From a virus, in the IMG/VR virus record IMGVR_UViG_3300025870_000004, positions 28,687 through 92,686 of that record: 64,000 nt of DNA. One strand, given 5' to 3'. The translations under genes were made by a program, and so were the position numbers. Within the stretch, counting starts at the first letter, position 1. Every line of letters begins with the position of its first letter. The notes beneath the pieces are model-generated. The model was given only the letters and a program-made list of their open reading frames with translations. It did no database searches and had not been told where the DNA came from. Positions 57,151 through 64,000 of the stretch are shown piece by piece.

Positions 57151-57831
57151 TTAACACCAACCGTTGGTGTAATCATCTTGATATAACACTTTTATATCAG
57201 AAATCGATTTAGATGTCAAGTCAGAAAGTTGCCACTTGGCTCTATTTTTTGATACGGTTGCGTAGATTGATGGTAGGTCTATCTGTAGGATGTCTTCCAT
57301 CAATGATTTACACTTATCAAAGTCGCGTATGTCGAATACATGGTCATAGTAATGTATGTTACCACCACAATGATATTGGGGATAGAATTCGGTCAGGGGA
57401 ATGCCCCAACGCACATGTTCCTTAACGATGTCGTTAATATCTTTGAATGTCCATTTTAATTTGACGAACTCTTCATATATCCCTGCGTCATATTGTTGGA
57501 TTGCAAAGTTCACTCCACTCAACCATCGTTCTACAGGGTCACGTTTGATAGCGAACCGCAATGTGTTGTCTCGCCAAAGGTCACCGTTTCTTTCCACAAA
57601 CTCTCGGCGACCATGAAGTTCTGACTGTCCGTGAGGAAAGTATCCGTGGGGATTATCGGAGGATGTTTGTCTGTAAGGCAGACCATTGAGGTCAGACCAC
57701 ATGACTTTCAATGTCGATGAACAGTTCTTCGGTATGATACGAAAGTCTATCTCGTCACCGAAGTATAGGACATTATACCTGTTATCAAAATAAGACTGTT
57801 GAGTCACCTTGTTCCTCGTTATACTTTTCAA
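57151..57831 (-). CDS. Sulfotransferase family protein
   Basis: 226 residues. IDFRIIPKNCSSTLKVMW is the phosphosulfate loop and RFAIKRDPVERWLSGVNFA the 3'-phosphate motif. ATG 57831 overlaps the nuclease gene by 47 bases; GTG 57807 with AGGA upstream is a good alternative start. Stands outside the main glycan island. Confidence 0.7.
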   Translation of the reverse strand: MKSITRNKVTQQSYFDNRYNVLYFGDEIDFRIIPKNCSSTLKVMWSDLNGLPYRQTSSDNPHGYFPHGQSELHGRREFVERNGDLWRDNTLRFAIKRDPVERWLSGVNFAIQQYDAGIYEEFVKLKWTFKDINDIVKEHVRWGIPLTEFYPQYHCGGNIHYYDHVFDIRDFDKCKSLMEDILQIDLPSIYATVSKNRAKWQLSDLTSKSISDIKVLYQDDYTNGWC

Positions 57832-61528: not shown

Positions 61529-61557
61529 ATAATAACACAAACTTATAATAAAGTCAA
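61529..61557 (-). promoter_or_regulatory. Sigma70-like early promoter overlapping a stop codon
   Basis: Minus strand TTGACT, 17 bases, TATTAT. The TGA is the stop of the oxygenase gene at 61554. Confidence 0.75.
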
Positions 61558-61997
61558 GCGTTTTTTGCAAAAAAAGTTAAAACAATTCTATCTTTTCCAC
61601 CAAAGCAAGGATTGTGTAGTGTTTTAGCATCGAAACATATGATACGATTTGTTTGAAATTCTGTGTATTGGTCATCAACGATAGTTCCCATACCCTCATC
61701 TCCAATCAGATATAGGACACCAGAACTCTCGGAATCCCAATCGATATGTTGTTCCAACCCTTTGAGCTCTGGGATAGGAAAGTTTTCTTTAGGATGTTTG
61801 AAAAGAGACATTCTTATAATTCTGACATCAAACTCTGTCTCTATCTTTTCTTTGATGTCATCATACACATGAATCAAATTTTTACTTCGATAACAATTGG
61901 AAGCAAATCTACATTCGTCAATCAACCAATCATCAGAATCATCAATAATTTCTTGTAGAGTTTTCTCGTCTAAAAAGTTATCTCGAACTCTGACCAT
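61554..61997 (-). CDS. 2-oxoglutarate/Fe(II) oxygenase-like protein
   Basis: 147 residues. QHIDWDSESSGVLYLIGDEG carries the HxD metal pair and FDAKTLHNPCFGGKDRIVLTFF the distal His and the Arg that binds 2-oxoglutarate. Close to the PKHD/hydroxylase group of marine phages. Could hydroxylate a protein or lipid. Overlaps the desaturase by 20 bases. Confidence 0.7.
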   Translation of the reverse strand: MVRVRDNFLDEKTLQEIIDDSDDWLIDECRFASNCYRSKNLIHVYDDIKEKIETEFDVRIIRMSLFKHPKENFPIPELKGLEQHIDWDSESSGVLYLIGDEGMGTIVDDQYTEFQTNRIICFDAKTLHNPCFGGKDRIVLTFFAKNA

Positions 61998-62745
61998 CGA
62001 AAACTCGTCTTAACATGATATTTAACTCATCATCTCTACTTGGATTATCGTGGTGGTCAGAGTGATTTTGTTCGCCATAGAATAACCACCAGCCCAGAAA
62101 CTTATTATAACCTTTGTGCCTTTTACTATTATTCTCGCCACCCAAGAATCCACCGTGGTTTATAATAGTCCACACCAGACCCATGTGACCATAGATGACT
62201 GGAATGACATAGAAGTATATCACATAACTTGGATTGATTGCAAACAAAATCGTAGCATATAACAGGTTTATCAACAGATAGTATTTCTCGAAGAACAACA
62301 AGACAGGGTCTTTGGATACATGACTCATTGACACAAGAAGTTTCTTACGGTCACGAAACGATAGGCCTTGGACAATCTTGGTGACTGATTTATGAAAATA
62401 CATGAAAGATGATTTGAACAACCCCAGTTGAACAGGACTGTGTGGGTCTTGTTCCGTATCGGAGAACCAGTGATGTAGTGTATGAATACTCACCCATGCG
62501 ATTGGGGGAGCGGTGAATGAGATTGACCCGATGATACTATACAGTGTCTTGAAGATATTACCTGTCTTCACCACGCGATGTGACAGAATTCTATGGTATC
62601 CTGCCATCGCAATGATGTAGAATAGGTAACCTGTGACGAGTGATGCAATTAGTAATGTTGGGTCAATACCATAGTTCCAGAAGTATACCCCCGCGATGAG
62701 AGGCATTATAATCTGAAACAAACCTGTAATCTTTTGCTTATCCAT
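61978..62745 (-). CDS. Fatty acid desaturase (membrane acyl desaturase)
   Basis: 255 residues from ATG 62745. Three His boxes in order: HRILSH, HTLHHWF and QNHSDHH, with four hydrophobic stretches (GVYFWNYGIDPTLLIASLV, TLYSIIGSISFTAPPIAWV, LLINLLYATILFAINP, YFYVIPVIYGHMGLVW). This is the delta-9-type diiron membrane desaturase. It could change membrane fluidity during infection. Stop/start overlaps tie it to both neighbours. Confidence 0.85.
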   Translation of the reverse strand: MDKQKITGLFQIIMPLIAGVYFWNYGIDPTLLIASLVTGYLFYIIAMAGYHRILSHRVVKTGNIFKTLYSIIGSISFTAPPIAWVSIHTLHHWFSDTEQDPHSPVQLGLFKSSFMYFHKSVTKIVQGLSFRDRKKLLVSMSHVSKDPVLLFFEKYYLLINLLYATILFAINPSYVIYFYVIPVIYGHMGLVWTIINHGGFLGGENNSKRHKGYNKFLGWWLFYGEQNHSDHHDNPSRDDELNIMLRRVFDGQSSR

Positions 62746-64000
62746 GCGTGTATATCTCAATTAGTTCGTCTTTACCCTTCACCTTGATATCTCCAATCTT
62801 CTTGGACAACATAGTATCGGGTAACAAATCTTTCGTATAACTCGAATAGATTGTCTTATAATCTATATAGTCACCCCGTGCGGCAGTGGCTTCTAGTCTT
62901 GCTGCAAGATTTACTGCGTCACCGATGACAGAATAATCGAATCTAGATTCAGAACCCATATTACCAACAATACAATCCCCAGTATTAACTCCAGTCCCCA
63001 CGTTGATAGGAGGGAGACCAGCTTCTTCATATTTTTTTCTAAGTTCATTGGTCTTTTCCTCAATCTGAATAGCAGACTTCACTGCCATCTCTGCGTGGTT
63101 GGGACAAGGTAACGGTGCGTTCCAGAATGCCATGATGCAATCACCCATATACTTATCTATAGTTCCACCATTGTCTTGAATGATTTTAGTCATCTGATTC
63201 AGATAATCATTGATAAGATGCACGAGCCCTTCGGGGTCATCGTTGTTTTTGTAGTGTTCGCTGATAGGTGTAAACCCACAGATATCCATAAACAGGAATG
63301 TCATCTCTTTGCGTTCACCACCCAGTTTCATCAGCGATGGGTCTTTGGCTAACATGTCAACCATGTCAGGACTTAGATAAGTTCCGAACTGACCTTTAAT
63401 CATTTGTTTCGCTTTGAACTGCGTATAGAACTGAACAAACGAACCGTGTGCAAAGATTATAACAAATGTTATAACGGGGAAGATTGGGTCGAGTAACATA
63501 TATGTTACATCAAACATATGTGATGCACCATACACGAAACTTGAACTAATCAACACAAATAATCCACCCGAAATCACGATAGAGAGTTTAGATAACATGA
63601 ATAGTATCACTATCGATACCACTATCGTTGTGAAAAGTTCATAAAACTTAAACTCTGGCATTCGTGTGATAGTCACACCATCAATCATCGTCTTCAACAG
63701 GTTTGCCTGAATGTCGTGGGGATACATCGCACCGACAGGGGTTGATACAACAGATGTCCCCTTGAAGGTCGCGCCCAGTATTGCAATACTTCCCGCTGGT
63801 ATCTGGTCTATCTCTGTGAAGGAATATCTCTTGAACTCGTTCCAGAATGCGATACGCACATTACTATTATCGTCTGTCTGAACTACATCGAACTTCGGTA
63901 TGCGAACAAATCGTATTCCATAGTCATCTGTCTTGACTTGATAGGATACATCACCCGCAGCCACACGAAGGATATCCAATGCAAAGGCAGGATACATGCG
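62738..64000 (-). CDS. CHASE2-type membrane class III nucleotide cyclase (partial)
   Basis: The frame continues beyond the right edge; 419 or more residues are visible. An N-terminal extracytoplasmic part (FALDILRVAAGD, PAGSIAILGATFKGT, ANLLKTMIDG) is CHASE2-like, followed by three membrane segments near 120-195, then a cyclase domain: FLFMDICGFT and YMGDCIMAFW (metal Asp pair), VIGDAVNLAARLE (Asn/Arg), and a Lys in GERKEMTF. A Ser sits in the DYSVIGD position where related cyclases have Thr. Likely makes cAMP. Confidence 0.85.
   Translation of the reverse strand, partial: RMYPAFALDILRVAAGDVSYQVKTDDYGIRFVRIPKFDVVQTDDNSNVRIAFWNEFKRYSFTEIDQIPAGSIAILGATFKGTSVVSTPVGAMYPHDIQANLLKTMIDGVTITRMPEFKFYELFTTIVVSIVILFMLSKLSIVISGGLFVLISSSFVYGASHMFDVTYMLLDPIFPVITFVIIFAHGSFVQFYTQFKAKQMIKGQFGTYLSPDMVDMLAKDPSLMKLGGERKEMTFLFMDICGFTPISEHYKNNDDPEGLVHLINDYLNQMTKIIQDNGGTIDKYMGDCIMAFWNAPLPCPNHAEMAVKSAIQIEEKTNELRKKYEEAGLPPINVGTGVNTGDCIVGNMGSESRFDYSVIGDAVNLAARLEATAARGDYIDYKTIYSSYTKDLLPDTMLSKKIGDIKVKGKDELIEIYTHG

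Follow-up and report, generated by a model that had tools for sequence, protein, structure and literature searches.

Described phage curli clusters and CHASE2 receptors

Curli genes have been reported in pelagimyophages (PMC7029224), and a T8SS/curli cluster with FecR and an adenylate cyclase, present in podo- and myophages alike, was published in 2022 (PMC9599517). For the phage Melnitz the cluster has been proposed to act as a pinholin/secretin, and no clumping was seen in culture (PMC9004378). PMC9599517 terms FecR a ferric citrate regulator and lists histidine kinases upstream of the cluster; we found no such kinases in the myovirus cluster, where a Pfam search detected no histidine kinase domain in the 93-aa proteins of phage HTVC008M. 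CHASE2 goes unmentioned in the passages of these three papers that were consulted, and a full-text search combining CHASE2, phage and adenylate cyclase did not retrieve them.

Two bacterial systems and one solved structure are the nearest points of comparison for the cyclase described below. The CHASE2 cyclases CyaD1, CyaD2 and CyaK of Sinorhizobium meliloti act with the outer-membrane protein NsrA (PMC13001267); as in the phage, a CHASE2 membrane cyclase goes together with envelope signalling and an outer-membrane partner, but NsrA is a predicted β-barrel, no curli genes are described, and the bacterium has a cAMP receptor of its own, Clr. In the biofilm-linked BiofilmReg operon of Burkholderia, which encodes a FecR-LysM protein and a CHASE2 kinase (PMC5192318), an exported FecR-domain protein likewise lies beside a CHASE2 receptor, whose output is a histidine kinase whereas that of the phage is a cyclase. 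CyaB of Pseudomonas aeruginosa (3r5g) has a similar catalytic domain with a Lys plus Thr/Ser selectivity pair; the crystallised catalytic-domain construct is without the CHASE2 and transmembrane (TM) part found in the phage protein.

A CHASE2 cyclase at the end of a virus contig

The stretch of DNA analysed here (“the window,” 64,000 nucleotides) is the final 64 kb of a 92,686-bp IMG/VR virus contig, bases 28687-92686, and it stops at position 64000 because the contig stops there. Tail, baseplate, ssDNA-binding and other genes of the contig are held in common with the Pelagibacter phage HTVC008M, and the contig therefore derives from a T4-like phage. Host DNA at the contig end can be ruled out: the record is a virus contig with T4-like gene matches, and related cyclases are present in two complete isolate genomes, those of HTVC008M and of Melnitz, a phage of OM43. 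The window closes with the following gene:

62738..64000, minus strand: CHASE2 class III (IIIb-like) adenylate cyclase (Pfam, PHROG, catalytic residues, AF2 model of the relative L002, CyaB 3r5g)

The 5′ side of this gene is open because the contig ends inside it, and the CHASE2 domain cannot be completed from this genome. Judged from the closest relative (L002), whose cyclase is 605 aa long and 96% identical, the window holds 420 of about 605 residues, with about 185 N-terminal residues missing. The reading frame matches Pfam Guanylate_cyc (E 2.4e-20), the C-terminal half of CHASE2 (profile positions 129-254 of 257, E 3e-6) and the 681-position phrog_35576, which carries no functional annotation (E 8.7e-145); the full-length HTVC008M cyclase, 48% identical to that of the window, matches PF05226 at E 9e-39. 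An AF2 model of the complete L002 protein (pLDDT 86.8) has an N-terminal TM helix, a periplasmic domain, three TM helices and a cyclase domain. This is the layout of a CHASE2 receptor with cytoplasmic output, seen in full in the L002 model; HTVC008M contributes the CHASE2 match of a full-length protein and the window the C-terminal half of the domain. The closest solved relative is CyaB (3r5g, E 2.4e-35), which is also among the best structural matches of the L002 model (TM-score 0.85 to 3r5g_A).

The sequence-only reading had described a CHASE2 class III cyclase with all main catalytic residues, and the comparison with 83 phage sequences bears this out. Both metal-binding aspartates (D239 and D287) and the base-selecting K283 are present in 83 of 83; the second selectivity position, S357 in the window, is Ser in 79; the transition-state residues N364 and R368, both present in the window, recur in 81 and 82. 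The protein thus has the two metal Asp and the transition-state Asn and Arg of class III enzymes, as well as an ATP-selecting Lys with a partner of the Asp/Thr/Ser type, a Ser that aligns with the Thr of CyaB. A Lys plus Ser/Thr selectivity pair is typical of class IIIb adenylate cyclases. By its conserved active site the enzyme should be functional, and the earlier suggestion of a phage membrane cyclase responding to a periplasmic or outside signal finds here an intact, conserved protein that should make a cyclic nucleotide. The suggestion had left cAMP and cGMP side by side; because the pair is Lys plus Ser, like that of class IIIb cyclases such as CyaB, cAMP is much the more likely product and cGMP far less so. 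The cyclase is under purifying selection, with dN well below dS both between the window and L002 (0.024 and 0.177) and between L002 and its relative L004 (0.081 and 0.639). Phage cyclases form a single clade (SH-aLRT 100), separate from 40 bacterial ones.

The cyclase almost certainly closes a phage curli cluster

IMG/VR yielded at least 598 candidate stretches with a relative of the cyclase, of which 80 were retained. In every retained locus with at least 4 kb of upstream sequence (45 of 45), genes for CsgF, CsgG, a curlin-repeat protein and a FecR-domain protein precede the cyclase on the same strand, and 43 of these clusters also encode a pair of small proteins, both with a single hydrophobic segment. 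The order in the relatives is the two one-TM proteins, CsgF, CsgG, curlin-repeat protein, FecR-domain protein, in some a second curlin protein, and the CHASE2 cyclase. The same cluster lies upstream of the cyclase in L002 and in the isolates HTVC008M and Melnitz, and in genes and order it matches the published one (PMC9599517; HTVC008M gp14-gp19), with the cyclase last. The window itself contains no curli genes, since the contig ends first, and their presence is taken from the relatives; compared with HTVC008M, the upstream genes lie off the contig and a desaturase gene is inserted after the cyclase. The window cyclase is almost certainly the last gene of a marine T4-like phage curli cluster whose preceding genes fall outside the contig.

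The setting was misread earlier because the contig stops within the cyclase, leaving the desaturase and the oxygenase as its sole visible partners. The accompanying statement that no phage system of this type had been described does not stand either, given that a cyclase of this kind comes last in the cluster published in PMC9599517 and is annotated in HTVC008M and Melnitz. What is new here is that this cyclase is identified as a CHASE2 receptor within the published cluster; that the phage FecR is an exported, PupR-like protein; that bacterial relatives of the cyclase often lie behind FecR or HlyD genes; and that the cluster stands behind a T4-type late promoter. The late-promoter motif TATAAATA was found no more than 120 bp ahead of the cluster in 29 of 43 loci (expected: 0.72).

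Some further features of the cluster may be recorded. At L084:6900-7462 the cluster begins with two proteins of 93 aa, each again with a single hydrophobic segment; the L002 copies of these small proteins belong to phrog_18771, and one of them weakly matches a holin family (E 3e-4). The product of L084:10638-11963 (HTVC008M gp18) carries a PA14 domain as well as curlin repeats and is possibly a carbohydrate-binding fibre subunit.

The phage FecR protein and bacterial relatives of the cyclase

All 21 phage FecR proteins contain a FecR domain, the sole domain that Pfam detects in them, and this follows at once on a hydrophobic N-terminal segment. The cytoplasmic anti-sigma region that precedes the TM helix in the FecI/FecR type of anti-sigma factor is missing. 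An AF2 model of moderate confidence (pLDDT 62.6) finds its best match in the cell-surface-signalling domain of PupR (6ovk, E 3.7e-5). These features are consistent with an adaptor in the periplasm rather than with a complete anti-sigma factor of the FecR type.

Bacterial relatives of the cyclase come mostly from Alphaproteobacteria, in a sample that is biased to Bradyrhizobium and whose loci are not independent. At 17 of 73 loci the gene immediately before the CHASE2 cyclase is a FecR reading frame, a minority arrangement dominated by Bradyrhizobium, and 16 of the 33 upstream proteins scanned match HlyD. Neither CsgG nor CsgF was found near the cyclase at any of 80 bacterial loci; conversely, no FecR or cyclase gene turned up within about 8 kb (or a shorter distance at contig ends) of 20 bacterial curli loci from 299 sampled Pseudomonadota genomes, so curli export itself does not need a FecR-cyclase relay. 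The combination of a FecR-CHASE2 cyclase with curli genes was not seen in the sampled bacteria, where the two occur apart, which makes the phage cluster look like a curli exporter joined to an envelope-sensing FecR-CHASE2 module.

In six marine alphaproteobacterial loci (L112, L120, L132, L134, L136 and L140) the CHASE2 cyclase lies directly behind a HlyD-profile protein of about 574 aa, encoded about 1.7 kb upstream; cNMP-binding domains were found in six scanned upstream proteins, probably those of the same loci, pointing to a secretion adaptor under the control of cAMP there.

A proposed relay from the curli pore to the host cytoplasm

Taken as a whole, a curli-cluster cyclase joined to a FecR-CHASE2 relay is the explanation we consider probable; the mechanism by which the relay would work is a closer call, and we place it slightly on the doubtful side. 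The cluster would be switched on late, from the T4-type late promoter, and CsgG and CsgF would form an outer-membrane pore exporting the curlin-repeat proteins. Periplasmic FecR, with its fold like the PupR signalling domain, might report the state of the pore or its cargo to CHASE2, which would drive a rearrangement of the cyclase dimer and hence the production of cAMP in the host cytoplasm. Observation supplies the gene content and order of the relatives, the intact active site, purifying selection, the fold similarities, the promoter motif and the bacterial FecR-CHASE2 neighbourhoods; contact between FecR and CHASE2, the signal, cAMP as product and the host target are inferred. The cAMP would probably act on a protein of the host, for example a CRP-family regulator, because no cyclic-nucleotide-binding protein (PF00027) was found in the eight phage records searched, several of them incomplete; our literature search for a Pelagibacter cAMP receptor returned nothing useful. 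More tentative still, and in our view possible rather than probable, is the specific proposal that the phage installs FecR and the CHASE2 cyclase as a trans-envelope receptor which reads the state of its own curli pore and converts it into host cAMP.

The main rivals to the relay concern lysis timing and FecR-independent sensing. Extending the proposal of PMC9004378, the pore and cyclase could time or tune lysis, CsgG acting like a pinholin or secretin and the cyclase altering host physiology ahead of it; the late-promoter motif before the cluster, the holin-like match of one small head protein and the unclumped Melnitz cultures agree with this, but models built on a pore alone have no need of the curlin-repeat and FecR proteins that all 45 clusters encode, and we regard it as unlikely. 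Equally unlikely, to our mind, is that the cyclase is a lone environmental sensor and FecR serves curli export only. Most of the sampled bacterial CHASE2 cyclases do stand without a detected adjacent FecR; against this, FecR is present in 45 of 45 phage clusters and, in bacteria that have no curli genes nearby, is repeatedly encoded just ahead of the cyclase.

A Pycsar-related enzyme of defence or counter-defence making cCMP or cUMP, for example against superinfecting phages, is very improbable: PADLOC PycC models do match the catalytic domain (E 6e-25), but this reflects the class III fold shared with CyaB, to which the match is E 2.4e-35, and in place of a PycC with an adjacent Pyc effector we found a membrane protein with CHASE2 and TM helices, secretion genes adjoining it in every checkable relative, and an HTVC008M cluster in which none of the genes encodes a Pycsar effector.

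The desaturase and oxygenase genes behind the cyclase

Downstream of the cyclase, the window encodes the following:

61978..62745, minus strand: membrane fatty acid (acyl-CoA type) desaturase (PF00487, 4ymk, His boxes)
61554..61997, minus strand: 2OG-Fe(II) oxygenase-like protein (HxD...H...R, alignment with 13 phage relatives)
60544..61500, minus strand: DUF932 protein, a synteny anchor (PF06067, E 5.8e-40)

The desaturase has the hydrophobic membrane segments of its family (PF00487, E 1.4e-13; acyl-CoA desaturase 4ymk in the PDB, E 1.6e-6) and all three His boxes intact (HRILSH, HTLHH and HSDHH). The 2OG-type protein has no Pfam match; it aligns with its phage relatives and retains the iron-binding HxD and distal His as well as the Arg. 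About 25 residues conserved in the N-terminal half of 13 phage relatives are missing from it, and its activity is uncertain. Both this protein and its L002 counterpart (L002:7235-7735) match phrog_274, whose label, DNA endonuclease V, may be misleading for the 2OG-type family.

In the sequence-only reading, cyclase, desaturase and oxygenase formed one operon for signalling and lipid remodelling. The gene overlaps on which it drew are real, 8 nt between the desaturase ATG and the cyclase stop and 20 nt between desaturase and 2OG-type gene, all on one strand; the desaturase His boxes are intact, and the motif TATAAATA is absent from the final 6.8 kb. Yet no desaturase lies behind the cyclase in any of 71 viral relatives with 2.5 kb of downstream sequence, and a 2OG gene lies directly there in only 13. 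In L002-L004 and L025 the desaturase is absent exactly between cyclase and 2OG gene, as the DNA breakpoints show, the differing segment spanning the end of the cyclase to the middle of the 2OG gene. The desaturase had no match in INPHARED and no close relative in IMG/VR, in a scan that detects close relatives only; a stearoyl-CoA desaturase is reported from freshwater relatives of pelagimyophages in PMC7029224. A three-gene operon is accordingly most improbable and its reading an accident of the contig end, and what ties a change of membrane lipids to the cyclase is adjacency in one contig. The desaturase is an insertion specific to this contig, outside the conserved cluster, while the 2OG-type gene is variable and often found behind the cyclase in the closest relatives. 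In terms of the proposed relay the desaturase would be a local passenger, co-expressed by virtue of lying behind the cyclase stop.

Beyond the insertion the gene order of L002 is largely that of the window (DUF932, peroxiredoxin, SprT-like protein and exonuclease, without the desaturase), and DUF932 follows on the cyclase side by side with such neighbours in most of L002-L017 as well as in L021, L025 and L030, always on its downstream side. A gene for a sulfotransferase-like protein (57151-57831; PF03567, E 8e-5) overlaps the exonuclease gene of the window.

Implications for marine phages

Curli clusters are carried by phages that abound in the ocean, and HTVC008M with HTCC1062 and Melnitz with H5P1 are cultured phage-host pairs in which the function of the cluster is testable. 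Were the cyclase to relay signals from the envelope to the cytoplasm, infection would give the cell a second-messenger circuit wired by the phage.
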